From contig NZ_JAFICC010000008.1 of NCBI RefSeq assembly GCF_017833415.1, positions 1 through 64,000 on the forward strand: a DNA stretch of 64,000 bases. Reading direction: 5' to 3'. A program made the position numbers and the translations under genes. The notes beneath the pieces were generated by a model. The model worked only from the letters and a program-made list of their open reading frames with translations, ran no database searches and had not been told where the DNA came from. Shown piece by piece: positions 48,589 to 56,623 of the stretch (position 1 is its first letter; each line of letters opens with the position of its first letter). This stretch comes from Flavobacterium sp. 1355. Lineage in GTDB: Bacteria; Bacteroidota; Bacteroidia; Flavobacteriales; Flavobacteriaceae.

Positions 48589-49770
48589 CTATAATTTAAA
48601 ATAATCAATATAAGTATTTAAATCTTTATCTCCTCTACCAGAAAGACTTATTACGACAATATCTTCGGGTTTAAATTTTTTATCATTCAAAACTGCCAAA
48701 GCGTGAGAAGATTCTATTGCAGGAATAATTCCTTCTAGTTTGCAAAGCTCCATTCCGGCTATCATAGCGTCATCATCTGTAACAGAGAAAAATTCGCCGC
48801 GTCCGGATTGTGCCAAATGAGCGTGCATCGGGCCAACACCCGGATAGTCCAAACCTGCAGAGATAGAGTAAGGCTCTGTAATCTGGCCGTCTGTTGTTTG
48901 CATCAAAAGAGTTTTGCATCCATGAATGATGCCCATTTTGCCAAGTTTGCTGGTTGCAGCGCTATGTCCGCTATTTACTCCCAAACCTGCTGCTTCTACG
49001 GCAATGATTCCTACTTTTGGTTCGTGTAAAAAGTGATAAAAAGTTCCGGCAGCATTACTTCCGCCGCCAATACAGGCTATGACATAATCAGGATTTTCGC
49101 GTCCTTCTTTTTCTTTAAGCTGCGATTTAATTTCTTCTGAAATGATACTCTGAAAACGTGTTACCATATCCGGATAAGGATGAGGTCCAATTGCAGAACC
49201 AATAATGTAATGCGTATCAACGGGATTGTTGATCCAGTCGCGGATAGCTTCATTAGTGGCATCTTTTAAGGTTCTTGATCCTGAAAGTGCCGGACGAACT
49301 TCTGCACCAAGCATTTTCATTCGGGCTACGTTTGGTGCCTGGCGTGCAATGTCGATTTCGCCCATATAGACAATGCATTCCAGCCCCATTAGCGCACAGA
49401 CTGTGGCGGTTGCAACACCATGCTGACCCGCTCCGGTTTCGGCAATAATACGCTTTTTGCCTAAACGTTTGGCTACGAGAATCTGACCGATTGTATTGTT
49501 TATTTTATGTGCTCCGGTATGATTTAAATCTTCTCTTTTTAAATAAATCCTGGTGTTGTATTTTTCAGATAAGCGATTGGCATAATAAAGCGGACTTGGT
49601 CTGCCAACATAATCTCTCAGTAATTGATTGAATTCAGACTGAAAATCGGGCTCAGCCATGATTTTTAAATAATTCTGGCGCAATTCTTCTACATTTGGAT
49701 AAAGCATTTCGGGAATATAAGCTCCTCCAAATTCTCCGTAATATCCTTTTTCGTCTACGTTAAAATTCAT
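48589..49770 (-). CDS. trpB: Tryptophan synthase beta chain
   Basis: A PLP enzyme of 393 residues from the ATG at 49770 (a ten-residue extension upstream, crossing into trpF, is not needed). The Schiff-base Lys89 lies in HTGAHKIN, the glycine loop is GGGSNAAG, and SGRGDKD lies near the C-terminus. It condenses indole with serine. It sits directly after trpF (10 bp). Confidence 0.97.
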
Positions 49771-49780
49771 TTTTTGAAAT

Positions 49781-50413
49781 TTAAAAGTTTGCAATTTCAA
49801 ATTTTCGTTTGAAATTGGTTAATAGGTTTTTGTTTTTCAGCCCTGGTTCGATTTCAAATTTACTATTTACATCAACAGCATAAATAGGTAAATTGCTTTT
49901 TGAAATTTCTTCGATAGCTTTTAATTCATTCATTCCGATACCGCCGCTCAAAAAGAAAGGTTTCTGCGAATTGTATTTTTTTAATATTGTCCAGTCAAAA
50001 GTGGTTCCGTTACCGCCCGGTAATTTTCCTTTGGTGTCAAAGAGAAAGTAATCACAAACAGGTTCGTAAGGTTTTAAAACCTCAAAATCAAAATCATTAT
50101 CTGCAGAAAATGCTTTAATAATTTCTGTTTTTTTGCCCACTTTGATTTTTAATTCTCCACAGAATTCAGCCGATTCATGTCCATGTAATTGTACTGCCTG
50201 TAAATCATACTTTGCTACCTTTTCCAGAATTTCTTCCTGGCTTTGATTCACAAAAACACCTGCTTTTTTGGTTGTTTTAAGCAATTCCGGAATTTCTCCG
50301 TTAAAATATCGTGCGGATTTCTCCCAGAAAATAAATCCCATATAGTCGGGTAGGAGTGCGCCTACCTCAAGGATATTATCTGAATATTTCATACCGCATA
50401 TTTTGAGTTTCAT
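49781..50413 (-). CDS. trpF: Phosphoribosylanthranilate isomerase
   Basis: A TIM-barrel protein of 210 residues from the ATG at 50413. The N-terminal MKLKICGMK contains the catalytic Cys7, and the Asp partner is in [18 protein letters not shown] and [10 protein letters not shown] bind the phosphate. It catalyses the Amadori rearrangement of phosphoribosylanthranilate. It is separated from trpC by a 121-bp gap full of repeats. Confidence 0.96.
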
Positions 50414-50468
50414 TTTTTTTATGGTTTTTGCCACTAAGGCGCTAGGCACAAAGTTTTTTTGTTTTTTT

Positions 50469-50534: not shown

Positions 50535-51320
50535 TTATTTATCTAATTGTTTAATAAAATCTTTAGCAGCATTTCCTGCGTTATCGGTTTTCATGAAGTT
50601 TTCTCCAATTAGGAAACCTTTGTAACCATAAGGTTTTAATTCGTTAATAGCATCAACAGACGAAATACCGCTTTCTGAAACTTTTACAAATTCATCCGGA
50701 ATTTTCGAAGCCAGTTGTTTGCTAAAATCAAGACTGACTTCAAAAGTTTTTAGGTTTCGGTTATTCACGCCGATCATATCAAGAGTAGGCATAATTGATT
50801 TTTCTAATTCTTCCTGATTGTGTACTTCTAAAAGAACTTCCAGACCTAATTTTTTTGCAAACTCAGATAAAGATTTGATTTCGTCGCGGGTTAAAACTGC
50901 TGCAATCAATAAAATCAAATCGGCTCCATGTGCTTTAGCTTCTAAAATCTGATATTCGTCAACAATAAATTCTTTTCGCAACAGCGGAATATTTACAGAA
51001 GCTCTTGCTAATATCAAATCGTCCAAAGAACCTCCAAAATATTTCCCGTCTGTTAGAACCGAGATTCCGCAAGCTCCGGCATTTTCATAACCTTTAACTA
51101 CTTCTTCAACTGTAAAATTATTGTTTATTATTGATTTTGAAGGAGAACGGCGTTTATGCTCGGCTATAATTCCCGAATTACTTTCTTTTAATTTCTGGCT
51201 CAGAGAAATAGTTTTTCTTTCAAAAAAAACAGAACTTTCCAATTGCGAAACCGGAATGATTGATTTTTTGAGAACGACTTCCCGTTGTTTATCTATTATG
51301 ATTTTATCTAAAATATTCAT
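50535..51320 (-). CDS. trpC: Indole-3-glycerol phosphate synthase
   Basis: A TIM-barrel protein of 261 residues from the ATG at 51320. Landmarks are AEHKRRSPSK, SVLTDGKYFGG, LLRKEFIVDEYQI, IGVNNRNLKTF and VSESGI, which carry the catalytic Lys, Glu and the phosphate-binding loop. It closes the indole ring. It is a monofunctional TrpC, not fused to TrpF. Confidence 0.97.
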   Translation of the reverse strand: MNILDKIIIDKQREVVLKKSIIPVSQLESSVFFERKTISLSQKLKESNSGIIAEHKRRSPSKSIINNNFTVEEVVKGYENAGACGISVLTDGKYFGGSLDDLILARASVNIPLLRKEFIVDEYQILEAKAHGADLILLIAAVLTRDEIKSLSEFAKKLGLEVLLEVHNQEELEKSIMPTLDMIGVNNRNLKTFEVSLDFSKQLASKIPDEFVKVSESGISSVDAINELKPYGYKGFLIGENFMKTDNAGNAAKDFIKQLDK

Positions 51321-51393
51321 TTTGTGATTTTTGCTACAAAGACACAAAGGCGCAAATTTATTAGTGCAAATTCGTGAAATTTGTGTTTGTTTT

Positions 51394-52386
51394 TTATTTA
51401 CTTAATTCTTTTAATATCTGCAATGCTTTCAGTCCTTTTCCAGAAAATAAACTTTCTTTTGCCAGTTCAAAACCTTCCTGCGGACTGCATTTTGTTACAG
51501 TTGAAATTGCCATTGCAGCGTTTGCTAAAACTACATTATTCTGAGCTTCAGTTCCCTTTCCTGAAATGATATTAATAAACATTTCTGCTGATTCTTCGAT
51601 TGTTTTTCCGCCTTCGATTTCTGTTTGGGATAAAAGTCTCACTCCAAAATCGTCCGGTTTCAACATTCCCTCCATATGGCTGGTTATAATTTTGGTTGGA
51701 CCGGTCAGGGAAATTTCGTCGTATCCGTCAAGCGAATGCAAAATTGTAAAATTGACATTGGTGTTTTGATATAAATACGCATACATTCTGGCTAATTCTA
51801 AATTGAATACACCTACCAGCTGATTGTTAGGAAAAGAAGGATTTACCATTGGACCTAACATATTAAAGAAGGTTTTTACAGCCAGTTCTTTTCTTATAGG
51901 ACCAACGTTTTTCATTGCCGGGTGAAACAATGGTGCATGCAGAACACAAATTCCGGCCTGATCGATACATTTTTCTAAAAACGAAGGATCATTGCTGAAC
52001 TTAATTCCCATTTTCTCCATTACGTTGCTTGATCCCGAAATCGATGAAACTCCGTAATTTCCATGTTTAGCTACTTTTATTCCGGCTCCGGCTGCGATAA
52101 ATGAAGCCAAAGTTGAGATATTGAAGGTGTCTTTTCCGTCACCGCCAGTTCCGCATAAATCGATTGTGTTGTAAGCCGACAAATCAACACGAACACACAA
52201 TTCTAACAAAGCTTCACGAAATCCCGAAAGCTCATCAATTGTAATGCTTCGCATCATAAATACAGTCAAAAAAGCCGAAATCTGGCTTGGATTGTATTGA
52301 CCGGTTGAAATATTAATCAATACGTCTTTGGCTTCTTCTTTAGAAAGCACTTCGTGGTTGATTAATTTGTTTAATATTGTTTTCAT
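51394..52386 (-). CDS. trpD: Anthranilate phosphoribosyltransferase
   Basis: A protein of 330 residues. The PRPP-binding motif CGTGGDGKDTFN lies at 78-89. KHGNYGVSSISGSSNVME and RKELAVKTFFNMLGP follow. It attaches phosphoribose to anthranilate. Gaps on both sides (trpC 73 bp, trpG 64 bp) contain dispersed repeat words. Confidence 0.97.
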   Translation of the reverse strand: MKTILNKLINHEVLSKEEAKDVLINISTGQYNPSQISAFLTVFMMRSITIDELSGFREALLELCVRVDLSAYNTIDLCGTGGDGKDTFNISTLASFIAAGAGIKVAKHGNYGVSSISGSSNVMEKMGIKFSNDPSFLEKCIDQAGICVLHAPLFHPAMKNVGPIRKELAVKTFFNMLGPMVNPSFPNNQLVGVFNLELARMYAYLYQNTNVNFTILHSLDGYDEISLTGPTKIITSHMEGMLKPDDFGVRLLSQTEIEGGKTIEESAEMFINIISGKGTEAQNNVVLANAAMAISTVTKCSPQEGFELAKESLFSGKGLKALQILKELSK

Positions 52387-52450: not shown

Positions 52451-53017
52451 TTAGCTCTTAATCCAGTTCTCTAAAATTCTTTTCCCTTTTGGAGTTAAAA
52501 CACTTTCCGGATGAAACTGAACGCCTCTTACATCAAAAGTTTTGTGTCTTAATGACATAATCTGCCCATTTTCGTCTATTGATGTTGCTTCAAGGACATC
52601 TGGTAAATTAGCGTCAACAACCCATGAATGGTATCTTCCCACTTCAAATTCATTTCCTAAACCTTCAAACAAAATTTCATCTGAAACTACTGTTTTCACA
52701 TTTGTTGCAACTCCGTGATATACTTTGTCAAGGTTAGAAAGTGTTCCTCCAAAAACTTCTCCAATTGCCTGTTGTCCTAAACAAACTCCTAAAATGCTTT
52801 TTGTTGGACTGTATTTTTCAATTACCGCTTTTAATAAACCTGCTTCATCCGGAATCCCCGGACCAGGAGAAAGTAAAATTTTGTCGAAAGCGGCAATTTC
52901 ATCAATGTCAAATTCATCGTTTCTGTAAACGGTTACTTCACAGTTTAAATCTTCTAAATAGTGCACTAAATTATAAGTGAAACTATCGTAATTGTCTATA
53001 ACTAATATCTTTTTCAT
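52451..53017 (-). CDS. trpG: Anthranilate synthase glutamine amidotransferase
   Basis: A protein of 188 residues. Cys79 in GVCLGQQAIGE is the nucleophile, and the His-Glu pair is in FHPESVLT. It supplies ammonia to TrpE. TrpG could also serve a PabB partner, since no second glutaminase is seen here. It is separated from trpE by a lipoprotein gene. Confidence 0.97.
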   Translation of the reverse strand: MKKILVIDNYDSFTYNLVHYLEDLNCEVTVYRNDEFDIDEIAAFDKILLSPGPGIPDEAGLLKAVIEKYSPTKSILGVCLGQQAIGEVFGGTLSNLDKVYHGVATNVKTVVSDEILFEGLGNEFEVGRYHSWVVDANLPDVLEATSIDENGQIMSLRHKTFDVRGVQFHPESVLTPKGKRILENWIKS

Positions 53018-53132: not shown

Positions 53133-53582
53133 TTATTTTTCCCGAACGTATTTTTCTGTAATGATGCGGTCTATTCCTAATTTTTCTACTTTTTCAATTC
53201 CTTTTTGAGTTAACGTGTCATTTTTAATTTTAACGACAAACTCAAATTTGCCATTTTCCCATTGACGGTTGTTGAAATATTCCAGATTTTCGGTATAAAT
53301 ACTGTCCTTCAAAGTATATTTTCCACCTCCGCCAAAAAACACCGCAGATGTGCTGTCTTTTCCGTTATTCAGATCATGATTAAAAAAAGCAAAATGGGTA
53401 TCATTTATAATTTTAATCATTTTTGTTTTTGAATTGAAAGTCGAGAATGTTGAATCTTTTTCTGTTGTTTCTGCTGATATAAGACGCCAGGTTCCTGTTA
53501 AAGGAATTGTTGTTGATTCTTTTTTAGTTTCGCATGAAGCGAAAAGCAAAATTGCAATAACAAAAGGAATAATATTTTTCAT
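53133..53582 (-). CDS. Lipoprotein of unknown function inside the trp operon
   Basis: A protein of 149 residues with a lipoprotein signal (LLFASC, Cys18). The remainder is beta-rich (GTWRLISAETTEKD, KMIKIINDTHFAFF, GGGGKYTLKDSIYTENLEYF), a layout like small lipocalin-type lipoproteins. It is transcribed between trpE and trpG. No reason for this position is evident; it may have been inserted together with the repeats that flank it on both sides. Confidence 0.75.
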   Translation of the reverse strand: MKNIIPFVIAILLFASCETKKESTTIPLTGTWRLISAETTEKDSTFSTFNSKTKMIKIINDTHFAFFNHDLNNGKDSTSAVFFGGGGKYTLKDSIYTENLEYFNNRQWENGKFEFVVKIKNDTLTQKGIEKVEKLGIDRIITEKYVREK

Positions 53583-53642: not shown

Positions 53643-55043
53643 CTATATTTTCTCCGCCATTTCCAGAGCCGTGTTCAACGCTCTTAATTTATTATAAACT
53701 TCCTGCATTTCGCTTTCTTCGTTTGAGCTTGCAACAATTCCTGCACCTGCCTGGCAATGCAATTGATGATTTTTACTAAGGAAAGTCCGAATCATAATCG
53801 CGTGATTAAAATTGCCTTCAAAATCCATAAAGCCGATTGCTCCTCCGTAGAAATTACGATTTGTTTTTTCATAATCTTCAATTAACTGCATGGCTCTGTG
53901 TTTTGGTGCACCGCTCAAAGTTCCTGCAGGAAAAGTATCTGCAACAACCTGCATGGTAGTGGCTTTTTCATGTAGATGTCCTGTAACTTTTGAAACCAGG
54001 TGAATTACATGCGAGAAAAACTGGACTTCTCTGTATTTTTCTACATTCACATCATGGCCATTTCGGCTCAAATCATTTCTCGCCAGGTCAACAAGCATTA
54101 CATGTTCACTGTTTTCTTTTTTATCCTCAGAAAGTTCTTTTGCCAAAAGTGCATCACGTTCGTCATTTCCGGTTCTTTTGAATGTTCCCGCAATAGGATG
54201 AATTTCGGCTTTTCTGTTTTTTACAATGATTTGAGCTTCAGGAGAAGAACCAAATATTTTAAAATCCCCGTAATCAAAAAAGAACAAATATGGCGAAGGA
54301 TTAATGCTTCTTAAAGCTCTGTAAACATTAAATTCATCACCTTTGAAGCCTTGTGTAAAACGGCGTGATAAAACCAATTGAAAAACATCTCCACGGAAAC
54401 AGTGTTTCTTGGCCAAAGCCACATTGTGTTTGAATTCTTGATCGGTAAGGTTTGAAAATCCTTCGCCTTCTTTGGTGAATTTGTATGAAGCAATATTTCT
54501 GGATTGCAATAGCTGCTCAATTTCTACAATGTTGTTTTTTCCGTCAACACTATGACAAAAAATATAAGCTTCGTTTTTGAAATGATTAATGGCAATGATG
54601 TTTTGATAGACTGCATAAAAAACATCGGGAATTGAGGTTGCATTGTCTTTTTTGGCAATTGTAACTTTTTCGAAATAACGAACAGCATCATAAGAAATGT
54701 ATCCAAACAAACCATTATTGATAAATTTAAAATCGTTTTTCTCTGATTTAAACTGACCTGAAAATTCCTGAATTATTTCCGGAATATTTGATGAACCATC
54801 TACTGGAATTATTTCAGTAGTTCCATCAGGGAAAGTTTTTGTAATTACTTCATTTTCGATTTTGATTGTTGCAATCGGATTACAGCAAACGTAAGAGAAA
54901 CTGTTGTCATTTCCATGATAATCACTACTTTCCAATAATAAACTATTAGGGAATTTATCTCTTATTTTAAAATAAATACTTACCGGCGTAATAGTATCTG
55001 CAAGAATTTGTTTGTAGTGTGTGTTGAGTATAAAAGGTTTCAA
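53643..55043 (-). CDS. trpE: Anthranilate synthase component I
   Basis: A chorismate-binding enzyme of 466 residues. LLES at 36-39 is the tryptophan feedback-binding element. Catalytic regions include GSSPEAQI, HPIAGTFKRT, LVDLARNDL, DTFPAGTLSGAPK and QAGAGIVASS. It converts chorismate to anthranilate with TrpG. It is the first structural gene of the operon, preceded by the leader peptide and attenuator at 55093-55221. Confidence 0.97.
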   Translation of the reverse strand: MKPFILNTHYKQILADTITPVSIYFKIRDKFPNSLLLESSDYHGNDNSFSYVCCNPIATIKIENEVITKTFPDGTTEIIPVDGSSNIPEIIQEFSGQFKSEKNDFKFINNGLFGYISYDAVRYFEKVTIAKKDNATSIPDVFYAVYQNIIAINHFKNEAYIFCHSVDGKNNIVEIEQLLQSRNIASYKFTKEGEGFSNLTDQEFKHNVALAKKHCFRGDVFQLVLSRRFTQGFKGDEFNVYRALRSINPSPYLFFFDYGDFKIFGSSPEAQIIVKNRKAEIHPIAGTFKRTGNDERDALLAKELSEDKKENSEHVMLVDLARNDLSRNGHDVNVEKYREVQFFSHVIHLVSKVTGHLHEKATTMQVVADTFPAGTLSGAPKHRAMQLIEDYEKTNRNFYGGAIGFMDFEGNFNHAIMIRTFLSKNHQLHCQAGAGIVASSNEESEMQEVYNKLRALNTALEMAEKI

Positions 55044-55092
55044 AGTATATAGATTTTAATTTTAATGTATTTTTTGTGTTTCGATTATGACC

Positions 55093-55126
55093 AAAAAAAA
55101 AGGCTTGTCGTGATGACAAGCCTTTT
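55093..55126 (-). terminator. trp attenuator terminator
   Basis: On the minus strand AAAAGGCTTGTC, a 5-nt loop, GACAAGCCTTTT and then a run of T. It is a 12-bp perfect stem with a nine-T tail, 39 bp after the leader-peptide stop and about 50 bp before the trpE start. A terminator at the head of an operon only makes sense as a conditional one. Confidence 0.93.
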
Positions 55127-55153
55127 ATATTTATAGTTTTTTACAATACCATA

Positions 55154-55190
55154 GGAAGCTTTGTTCACGACGTTTGACGTAAATTCTTCC
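55154..55190 (-). promoter_or_regulatory. Alternative pairing segments of the trp leader RNA
   Basis: GGAAG (minus 55190-55186, overlapping the third Trp codon) pairs with CTTCC (minus 55158-55154). The second segment, with ACAAAGCTTCC, can instead pair with AAGGCTTGT of the terminator's left arm, with one bulge. These are candidates for the 1:2 and 2:3 structures. The pairing is my inference. Confidence 0.5.
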
Positions 55191-55221
55191 ACCACCAAGT
55201 ATTGTTTAAAATTGTTCTCAT
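55165..55221 (-). CDS. trpL: trp operon leader peptide (Trp-Trp-Trp)
   Basis: An 18-codon reading frame reading MRTILNNTWWWKNLRQTS and a stop. Trp codons 9, 10 and 11 are consecutive (55197-55189), although Trp is rare elsewhere. The start codon is preceded by an A-rich stretch as is usual in Bacteroidota. It lies between the promoter at 55239-55246 and the attenuator terminator, upstream of trpE. It would sense charged tRNA-Trp by ribosome stalling at the Trp run, as in enteric trpL. Confidence 0.93.
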   Translation of the reverse strand: MRTILNNTWWWKNLRQTS

Positions 55222-55238
55222 TTCTTTTTTTGTTGAAG

Positions 55239-55246
55239 CAAAGATA
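55239..55246 (-). promoter_or_regulatory. -7 element of the trp operon promoter
   Basis: Minus-strand TATCTTTG fits TAnnTTTG. The leader-peptide ATG begins 18 bp downstream, so the 5' leader before it is about a dozen bases. I see no clean TTTG at the -33 spacing. Confidence 0.65.
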
Positions 55247-55342
55247 TAAATGTAATTTGAATTGAGAGATATAAAAATTCAAAAAAAACTTTTCTAAATC
55301 TGAAAATTTGTTAAATTTTAATTTTACCTGCTCTTTAAGTAC

Positions 55343-56623
55343 TTAATTTCCAATTGCAATTGTATTGTTTACATTGGCTCTAAAGTCTGGGCTCCCTTTA
55401 ATATTTGGTGTTAAAAAAAGCTCATTATTTTTCATTTTAGTATATCCAATCCCATTTTCAGGTTTGTTATACCAGTTATCCAATGTAGAATTGATGCTGC
55501 TTGATTCGCTTACAATTCCCCCATTGCAATTATTTACAACTACATTTTTGAATGTAATTTTAGATAAATTCTCATTACTGTTTCCCACGTTTCCTTCTAA
55601 TAAAACAAAAGGAGTAAAGCCCGAAACAATGGTATTGGTTAAGCTAAAAAAGGTATTTTCTCTAATAAAAAGAGATTCTCTTACCAATCCCTGATTGTTT
55701 TCTTCCAGATTTACCAAAGTAATATTGCTTGCAGTTATTTTGGTCATTTTCTTGCTCATATCTGTATTCTGAATTTTATCATAAGAGTCTACTTCAAAAC
55801 ATCTTGATCCCGAAACATCTGACGAAAATGGATGACGGACTGCAATACTATTACTAATATTGATTTGGGCGCCTTGCGTAAAATCAAAATCATCATCTGT
55901 AGTTCGGTAAGAGACTAAATTACTCATATTCAAATCTCCGCCGTAACATTCAAAAGAATCATCATTCGAATAACTGATCTGAATATTATTCAAAATGGTT
56001 TTTCGTCCAATACCTGCCAGAGAAAGTCCGTTAAGTTCTTTTAAAGCACTTAATTTTCTTCCTGCATATTCAATTCTCACATATTTTAAAATTCCGGAAT
56101 TATCTTCTGCATCCTGACCTCCGTAATGATTTAATATTGGATCTAAATCAAAAGGCAATGTGTGCACACCTCCAAGAATATTAATTGGTGCTTTTCCCAG
56201 AATAATAATACCGCCCCAGTCTCCCGGTTTTCTTTCTGTTTTTTCTTTATTTGAAGTAAAAACAATAGGATCAGTTTCTAAACCTTCGGCAATAATTTTT
56301 GCACCATTGGTTATCACAAGTGTCCCGCAGCTTTTATCATCTCCGCGAATTACAGTTCCCGGCTCTATGCTCAAAGTAGCATTGTTGGTAACATACACAA
56401 CACCAACTAATTGATAAGTATTGCGTTTTAATAATTTGGTATCTTTATCTATTATTCCGGCAATTATATTAGTAGCTTCGTTATATTCGTTTGCAGCAGG
56501 CTTAAAATTAGTCCAGTTATTCATCCAGTTATTAGTTCCAATAATTCCTTTTTGCTGTTGCTGAGCGTGAAGAAAAAAACTGCTGAGAAGAGTAATAATG
56601 GCAATTTGTATTTTTGTTTTCAT
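55343..56623 (-). CDS. Secreted beta-helix protein
   Basis: A protein of 426 residues with a signal peptide (1-20, FFLHAQ). Residues about 70-350 are short repeated strands typical of a right-handed beta-helix (ATLSIEPGTVIRGDD, GIVSESSSIN). GDWGGIIILGKAP is a landmark of a Bacteroidota family often mis-named as transporters. There is no T9SS sorting domain. It is a stand-alone gene upstream of the trp promoter. Confidence 0.78.
   Translation of the reverse strand: MKTKIQIAIITLLSSFFLHAQQQQKGIIGTNNWMNNWTNFKPAANEYNEATNIIAGIIDKDTKLLKRNTYQLVGVVYVTNNATLSIEPGTVIRGDDKSCGTLVITNGAKIIAEGLETDPIVFTSNKEKTERKPGDWGGIIILGKAPINILGGVHTLPFDLDPILNHYGGQDAEDNSGILKYVRIEYAGRKLSALKELNGLSLAGIGRKTILNNIQISYSNDDSFECYGGDLNMSNLVSYRTTDDDFDFTQGAQINISNSIAVRHPFSSDVSGSRCFEVDSYDKIQNTDMSKKMTKITASNITLVNLEENNQGLVRESLFIRENTFFSLTNTIVSGFTPFVLLEGNVGNSNENLSKITFKNVVVNNCNGGIVSESSSINSTLDNWYNKPENGIGYTKMKNNELFLTPNIKGSPDFRANVNNTIAIGN

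Follow-up and report, generated by a model that had tools for sequence, protein, structure and literature searches.

A Bacteroid-trp leader before trpE in Flavobacterium sp. 1355: a predicted ribosome-mediated attenuator, its conserved antiterminator and a lysine counterpart

The DNA ahead of trpE in the window (the whole stretch of 64,000 nucleotides analysed here) very probably encodes a ribosome-mediated transcription attenuator of the RF01692 family, which would couple transcription of the trp operon to charged tRNA-Trp; we put the probability of this reading at about 0.93. The response of the cell to tryptophan is something that we infer from the parts of the switch, from their conservation and covariation, and from the geometry of a folding model. 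The element is real and ordinary in kind, and the antiterminator and the spacing rule described below refine the Rfam model. The switch as resolved here indicates the competing strands, and the reason why drift is tolerated in the stop codon but not in the distance. What would surprise a specialist is a lysine sibling, apparently a natural exchange of the amino acid that one RNA core senses; such a Trp/Lys swap opens the modularity of leader-peptide attenuators to direct test.

The leader, its operon and its family

The features of the locus, with the evidence for each, are as follows.

55246-55239, minus strand: Bacteroidota-type -7 element TATCTTTG (read directly; match to TAnnTTTG)
55221-55165, minus strand: leader ORF MRTILNNTWWWKNLRQTS, 18 codons, stop included, with ATG at 55221 and TGA at 55167-55165
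55204-55198, minus strand: outer stem P0, 5' arm CAATACT (fold; partner 55150-55144)
55197-55189, minus strand: three Trp codons, the putative sensor, codons 9-11 of the ORF (read directly)
55183-55178, minus strand: protector stem P1, 5' arm TTTACG (fold; partner 55169-55164)
55171-55165, minus strand: antiterminator strand 2a, GTCGTGA (partner 55113-55107)
55169-55164, minus strand: P1 3' arm CGTGAA, overlapping the antiterminator strand and the stop codon (fold and alignment)
55161-55156, minus strand: antiterminator strand 2b, AAGCTT (fold; partner AGGCTT at 55123-55118, in the terminator left arm)
55158-55154, minus strand: CTTCC segment (read directly)
55150-55144, minus strand: P0 3' arm GGTATTG (fold and alignment)
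55126-55098, minus strand: intrinsic terminator stem-loop of 12 bp, AAAAGGCTTGTC-ATCAC-GACAAGCCTTTT (read directly; terminator scan; alignment)
55113-55107, minus strand: antiterminator partner TCACGAC, formed by the terminator loop and the start of the right arm (alignment, folds, duplex energies)
55101-55093, minus strand: run of nine T (read directly)
53643-55043, minus strand: trpE, the first gene past the terminator (best match NCBIfam trpE_most, 438.7 bits, below its cut-off of 517.7)
52451-53017, minus strand: trpG-type amidotransferase (TIGR00566, over cut-off)
51394-52386, minus strand: trpD (NCBIfam, over cut-off)
50535-51347, minus strand: trpC (NCBIfam, over cut-off)
49781-50449, minus strand: trpF (NCBIfam, below cut-off)
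48589-49800, minus strand: trpB (NCBIfam, over cut-off)

The layout that the first-pass annotation had read from the letters, with a -7 element, an 18-codon ORF with Trp at codons 9-11, a 12-bp terminator, nine T and then trpE, was borne out in every part when the sequence was read directly. Past the terminator the NCBIfam matches give the gene order trpE, trpG, trpD, trpC, trpF and trpB. The start of trpE at 55043 (minus strand) appears to be TTG. Between trpE and trpG lies a small lipoprotein-like ORF (53133-53582, minus strand) with weak lipocalin-like Pfam matches, all below cut-off, and upstream of the leader there is an ORF of 426 aa (55343-56623, minus strand) with no Pfam family over its cut-off.

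The leader is predicted to fold at -36.7 kcal/mol, compared with -21.4 +/- 3.3 in shuffles (z = -4.68; 0 of 200 shuffles equally stable). Of 209 leaders, 193 have the motif TAnnTTTG, which we take to be the consensus of the Bacteroidota -7 element, no more than 45 nt from the leader start, against 5 of 209 control windows, and 129 of those 193 have TTG 19-20 nt 5' of it, at the -33 spacing. The window itself has no TTG 15-25 nt 5' of TATCTTTG; the sole TTG in the 44 upstream bases is 33 nt away.

A terminator scan of 54000-56500 recovers the 12-bp hairpin, with 3 terminator-like sites on both strands compared with 1.4 +/- 1.4 in shuffles, and taken alone is weak evidence for a terminator. It is conceivable that the hairpin is a plain terminator, for example of the upstream gene at 55343-56623, and that the ORF has no role. 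From 55343 down to 55098 the scan gives this terminator alone on the minus strand, so that the upstream transcript may well end here too. Against this explanation, which we consider highly improbable, stand the promoter element in most leaders, the conserved leader ORF and the covariation of P1 and the antiterminator (below); moreover, without an antiterminator, a hairpin in this position would silence the operon. We read the hairpin as the terminator of an attenuator.

Rfam RF01692 (Bacteroid-trp) matches 55241-55115 over its full model (1-131) with 78.3 bits, against a cut-off of 49 (E = 1.1e-9). It is the sole Rfam family over its cut-off within the window, and no second RF01692 match at E <= 0.001 turns up elsewhere in the 5.17-Mb genome. 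The score lies above the gathering cut-off, a short ORF with Trp codons precedes a trp gene, and the host belongs to the Bacteroidota; by sequence, the element is an ordinary member of a family that is already catalogued. The first-pass annotation could not say whether such a leader had been described in Bacteroidota. As far as the accessible text of the papers goes, it has, as RF01692 (PMC2864571, PMC6414381): the family is listed in a Table 1 as cis-regulatory in Bacteroidetes (PMC2864571), Bacteroid-trp is named before the F. psychrophilum trp operon and set against the E. coli leader for comparison (PMC6414381), and strong clues for leader-peptide attenuation are noted upstream of F. psychrophilum amino-acid operons (PMC9723704). 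The present case resembles that of F. psychrophilum in the flavobacterial host, in the place of Bacteroid-trp before the trp operon and in the clues for attenuation; however, the accessible text of the F. psychrophilum accounts gives no antiterminator and no lysine version (PMC9723704, PMC6414381). Our element is like RF01692 in sequence, first hairpin, Trp leader peptide and position before trp genes, but the Rfam model ends in the left arm of the terminator and pairs neither the terminator nor the antiterminator, both of which are added here.

At E <= 0.001, RF01692 has matches in 78 of the 121 genus genomes (77 above cut-off), in 275 of the 397 family genomes (241 above cut-off) and in 42 of the 395 phylum genomes (38 above cut-off). 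Of the 43 genus genomes that lack one, twenty were examined, 14 of these 20 being >=90% complete and <=5% contaminated. The trpD gene is missing in 14 of the 20 and present in 6; among the latter, one contig ends too early and five have a Trp-Trp leader before trpE. Within this 20-genome sample, then, absence of an RF01692 match meant that the trp operon was absent too or that its leader had diverged. The leaders missed by RF01692 (L324, L325, L326, L328, L329) have Trp-Trp codons 131-146 nt before trpE, in other letters (about 101 nt in L326 under a longer reading of trpE), and share a similar layout of stem-loop, antiterminator pairing and terminator, with the pairing energy computed for four of the five.

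A model of the leader core (R1) gives 86.3 bits at the trp leader of the window genome. Further strong copies of the core in this genome were rejected, because the next R1 scores are 42.4 (antisense, at the same place) and 38.7 and lower; weak class-wide R1 matches are, by inspection, mostly ordinary terminators. Among 20 class-wide R1 loci examined, TGGTGG was nearby in 5 and a Trp leader peptide was present in 4 (L272, L273, L286 and L292, where L286 = L085 and L292 = L081 are the same places fetched twice).

Fixed spacing, stems and the antiterminator pairing

We read 216 RF01692 loci, which are part of the family-wide and phylum-wide matches. The run TGGTGG is present in 215 of them and TGGTGGTGG in 210; the one locus without TGGTGG is L078, a Lys leader. 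Among the leaders listed, the leader ORF is kept in relatives, with an ATG in frame ahead of the Trp run in 211 of 215. The first-pass annotation had named a lack of conservation of the ORF or of its Trp run as a result that would refute the attenuator reading; by these counts, together with the spread through genus and family given above, the reading passes that test. The Trp runs of L214, L223, L233 and L241 have no in-frame ATG; in-frame GTG or TTG is present there. Setting aside L078 (no Trp run, Lys leader), L106 (imperfect terminator stem) and L041 (a repeat of L040) leaves 213 distinct Trp leaders, of which 205 have the motif TCGTRA; those outside the 205 are L111, L114, L115, L117, L120, L193, L199 and L201.

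Between the end of the Trp run and TCGTRA lie 17-19 nt in 200 of the 205 leaders, most commonly 18 nt (174 of 205), with 12 nt in two and 21 nt in three. The start of the stop codon, in contrast, ranges from -11 to +41 nt relative to TCGTRA, with +3 the commonest position (149 of 205). In the genus loci L040, L041, L053, L062, L066 and L068 (L040 and L041 are identical) the stop is shifted upstream and TCGTGA falls outside the ORF, whereas L074, L075 and L079 read TCGTGA in another frame and stop +29 to +41 nt past its start. Because the distance is fixed while the stop codon drifts and the ORF frame varies, TCGTGA is kept as RNA and not as codons. L074, L075 and L079 are Trp leaders ahead of a trpB-like ORF.

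These findings bear on the possibility that the RNA senses tryptophan or uncharged tRNA directly, through a TRAP-type protein, a T-box or a riboswitch, and that the ORF is incidental. Systems of these kinds control the trp operons of other phyla, and TRAP binding needs a row of GAG/UAG triplets. The stretch 55241-55093, however, has one GAG and zero TAG triplets, and neither the 11 Rfam matches at E up to 5 nor those over cut-off include a T-box or a riboswitch. With the Trp run and its spacing to TCGTGA conserved as well, direct sensing has very little to recommend it, and sensing by a translating ribosome remains the preferred reading.

The strand GTCGTGA is complementary to TCACGAC, which comprises the terminator loop and the first bases of the right arm, and AAGCTT is complementary to AGGCTT of the left arm. 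Conservation was assessed in an alignment, A1, of 91 of the 213 Trp leaders (<90% similarity, L114 left out) and 7 Lys leaders, making 98 sequences in 96 distinct rows; pairing fractions for P0, strand 2b and GGAAG:CTTCC come from an alignment of 116. In A1, 91.2% of the cells of GTCGTGA:TCACGAC are paired, versus 6-62% in slid controls. Strand 2b (AAGCTT:AGGCTT) is paired in 70.0% of cells, with slid controls at 12-57%, and forms in the window fold, in agreement with the suggestion of the first-pass annotation that a second segment pairs with the left arm of the terminator. The same annotation had proposed a 1:2 stem between GGAAG, at the third Trp codon, and CTTCC. This stem does form in the window fold, but as a conserved stem it was rejected, its 48.6% of paired cells falling within the slid-control range of 34-86%. 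On the alignment, then, the conserved antiterminator is GTCGTGA:TCACGAC, around the leader stop, rather than GGAAG:CTTCC. A literature search over freely accessible main texts brought up no published antiterminator of RF01692.

The antiterminator columns are nearly invariant in A1 and there is little covariation inside the family. Of 500 shuffles, 12 reach its paired fraction, 35 its covariation score, 182 its number of double-change pairs and all 500 its further pair types, a weakness that follows from columns that hardly vary. More divergent leaders were examined by duplex energy, comparing each segment with its own terminator and with swapped ones. In a set of 20 leaders the own duplexes average -10.37 kcal/mol and the swapped ones -7.58 kcal/mol, and 0 of 20000 permutations reach the observed sum; in 12 divergent leaders the values are -10.80 and -6.92 kcal/mol (0 of 20000), and in 11 leaders, including four that Rfam does not detect, -11.98 and -6.22 kcal/mol (0 of 20000), where the permutations ignore kinship, the sets of 20 and 11 were hand-picked for divergence (L326 being left out of the 11), and three terminators in the 20-leader test and six in the 11-leader test were placed by hand, with arm strings read off. 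The pairing is kept with changed letters in L272 (TGTGAAC:GTTCACA), L273 (AACGTGA:TCACGTT) and L201 (GTCGAT:ATCGAC). Several leaders would pair better with terminators other than their own (own terminator at rank 15 for L115, 14 for L247 and 10 for L237, of 20), and 24 of the 213 leaders lie outside the best 5% of shuffled segments for antiterminator pairing. Taken together, the comparisons argue that the antiterminator co-evolves in divergent relatives, with support that rests on hand-picked outgroups.

The terminator stem shows strong covariation, with 97.2% of cells paired, 9 of its 12 pairs changed on both sides and 0 of 500 shuffles as good. The outer stem P0 is paired in 68.6% of cells (slid controls 26-51%). 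For P1 (TTTACG:CGTGAA), 77.1% of A1 cells are paired and 0 of 500 shuffles reach either its paired fraction or its covariation score, although its number of double-change pairs is reached by 267 of 500; when the partner is shifted by -3, the covariation score exceeds that of P1 proper, perhaps owing to the repeated ACG/CGT letters. The outer pair of P1 joins the base before TTACG, usually a silent third codon base, to the base after TCGTGA. In the 135 leaders that carry TTACG and TCGTGA in their usual arrangement this pair is T-A in 76, C-G in 51, A-T in 4 and a mismatch in 4, and is thus standard in 131. By parsimony on a TrpE tree of 133 of these leaders there are 9 standard-to-standard changes and 4 pair-breaking ones; the protector stem covaries, with about nine double changes.

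A folding model of the switch

In E. coli trpL, a leader peptide with product codons, a protector stem, an antiterminator and a terminator form a switch in which a stalled or a terminating ribosome chooses the outcome. Our element shares all four parts with the enterobacterial leader: the ORF holds codons of the product (WWW), an intrinsic terminator stands before the first gene, and an antiterminator that excludes it can be formed in silico. It differs in that the stop codon of the leader and the conserved antiterminator strand share bases, and in that the pairing extends into the terminator loop and right arm.

We propose the following scheme. When tryptophan is scarce, a ribosome stalled at the Trp codons would cover TTTACG and so free GTCGTGA, which could then pair with TCACGAC in the loop and right arm, while AAGCTT would pair with the left arm; the terminator would not form and trpE would be transcribed. 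When tryptophan is plentiful, the ribosome would reach the stop inside GTCGTGA and mask this strand, and the terminator would form. In an untranslated leader, GTCGTGA could be hidden in the P0/P1 hairpin.

The scheme was put into a masking model that assumes a ribosome edge 13 nt from the A site and that speaks to folding geometry only. Over the 205 leaders, the median antiterminator probability is 0.22 for free RNA, 0.97 with a ribosome stalled at the first or the last Trp codon, and 0.00 with a ribosome at the stop, this last near-zero value being largely by construction. With a stalled ribosome the probability exceeds 0.5 in 200 of 205 leaders at the first Trp codon and in 205 of 205 at the last. 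The suggestion of the first-pass annotation that stalling frees the antiterminator thus finds support in the model, although the conserved pairing that would be freed, GTCGTGA:TCACGAC, is one that it had not spotted. Two results sit less easily with the scheme. Free RNA (short of the full terminator) favours the antiterminator (>0.5) in 87 of 205 leaders, including the window at 0.95; with such a value the untranslated RNA is not clearly off at equilibrium, and shut-off without translation would depend on the order of folding. The late stops of L074, L075 and L079, at +29 to +41, misfit masking by a terminating ribosome.

A further alternative is that translation of the leader governs translation of trpE, by reinitiation or by masking of the start site, and not transcription. 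In the accessible text of one study, leader ORFs may through reinitiation increase translation downstream, in Bacteroidetes too, with a distance peak in Bacteroidetes of 11-14 bp (PMC4833913). Here, 121 nt separate the leader stop from the trpE start, and a strong terminator with nine T lies between them, so that we give translational coupling hardly any weight in comparison with attenuation of transcription.

A lysine version before aspartokinase

The search with the core pattern also matched sites without RF01692, which proved to be Lys-codon leaders before aspartokinase (L153, L251-L255). L078 in genome G072 is a Lys leader too, and gives a second RF01692 match there at 46.2 bits, below the cut-off; G072 has both versions, Trp (L074) and Lys (L078). 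When named genomes were scanned for the Lys form, 20 loci emerged, 13 from Chryseobacterium, 3 from Myroides, 2 from Flavobacterium and 2 from metagenome-assembled Flavobacteriaceae. The Lys loci from all the searches are:

L293-L312, L078, L153, L251-L255, L314, L319: Lys-codon version of the core before aspartokinase (some are the same place fetched twice)

At least five were fetched twice (L078 = L300, L153 = L307, L251 = L294, L253 = L302, L255 = L299), and the sets are therefore not additive.

We consider it likely that the Bacteroid-trp core is a reusable cassette, in which Lys codons in place of Trp codons, at the same 18 nt, give a lysine-sensing attenuator of aspartokinase (and of lysA in some genomes) in Chryseobacterium, Myroides and some Flavobacterium-like bacteria; the core would set the distance and the pairing, and the codons upstream would choose the amino acid. 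The leader peptides read KKxKKQ[YN]LR[RPQ]TS in 19 of the 20 loci and KVKKQYLRPTS in L307 (Myroides guanonis), and every one of them ends at this core. In the 20 loci, 18 nt separate the last Lys pair from TCGTGA, the same as the commonest spacing of the Trp run. Aspartokinase (MKVLKFGGTSVG) begins 86-153 nt past the leader stop in 19 of 20, L297 having only 101 nt left. The scan pattern fixed the core and the Q codon, whose conservation is accordingly by construction; the Lys codons, the terminator and the aspartokinase were not in the pattern. A Lys run alone is weak evidence, because AAA is common in such genomes, and it is the fixed place of the Lys codons and the gene behind them that carry the case. 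In the masking model, the medians of the 20 Lys leaders are 0.14 free, 1.00 stalled and 0.00 at the stop. The Lys form presumably derived from the Trp form.

A lysA-like motif comes next in 5 of the 20 loci (L293, L300, L305, L307, L311) and is absent in all seven Chryseobacterium loci with >=5.9 kb downstream. The gene that comes next in L305 is identified as lysA by TIGR01048, over cut-off. For the aspartokinases of both L305 and L296 the best match is lysine-sensitive aspartokinase 3, below the cut-off of that model.

The RF01692 model covers the lysine version poorly. Of nine Lys loci scanned, one reaches the cut-off of 49 (L304, 49.1 bits); L293 has 46.9 and L311 38.9, and the other six have no match at E up to 0.5. 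In these nine loci the Rfam search at E up to 0.5 gave no lysine riboswitch. By its score, the Lys leader of L304 (107-230, minus strand) would be named a Trp leader by Rfam, a warning that an Rfam name alone can misname the amino acid sensed.

Lysine genes of Thermus have a lysine leader-peptide attenuator, and a lysine riboswitch is also known; the Lys version resembles both in being a leader RNA that would control lysine genes. Our literature search, judged largely by titles, brought up no description of the lysine version in print, and no paper on the Thermus attenuator.

A search for a third amino acid on the core in 296 genomes of the order gave 39 sites in 38 genomes, of which 27 are Trp, 6 Lys and 6 apparently unrelated by inspection, and 148 genomes around Chryseobacterium gave 7 sites, 5 Lys and 2 coding noise. 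No third amino acid was recognised in these 296 + 148 genomes with patterns that demand the full core and would miss diverged versions. Two further leaders of the window genome, both on G000:C11, stand before other amino-acid genes. The same architecture is not claimed for these his and ilv leaders, their antiterminator pairing being no better than in shuffles (fractions 0.376, 0.142). The first is a His leader, MISIQLHHHHFHYCSQAMC, with a terminator before hisG (L330, about 1324-1441), which scores 30.8 bits against the His_leader model, below its cut-off of 49; the second is a leader MMQISIIITSVVVVNVFSTSASGMV with a terminator before ilvD (L331, about 1285-1410).
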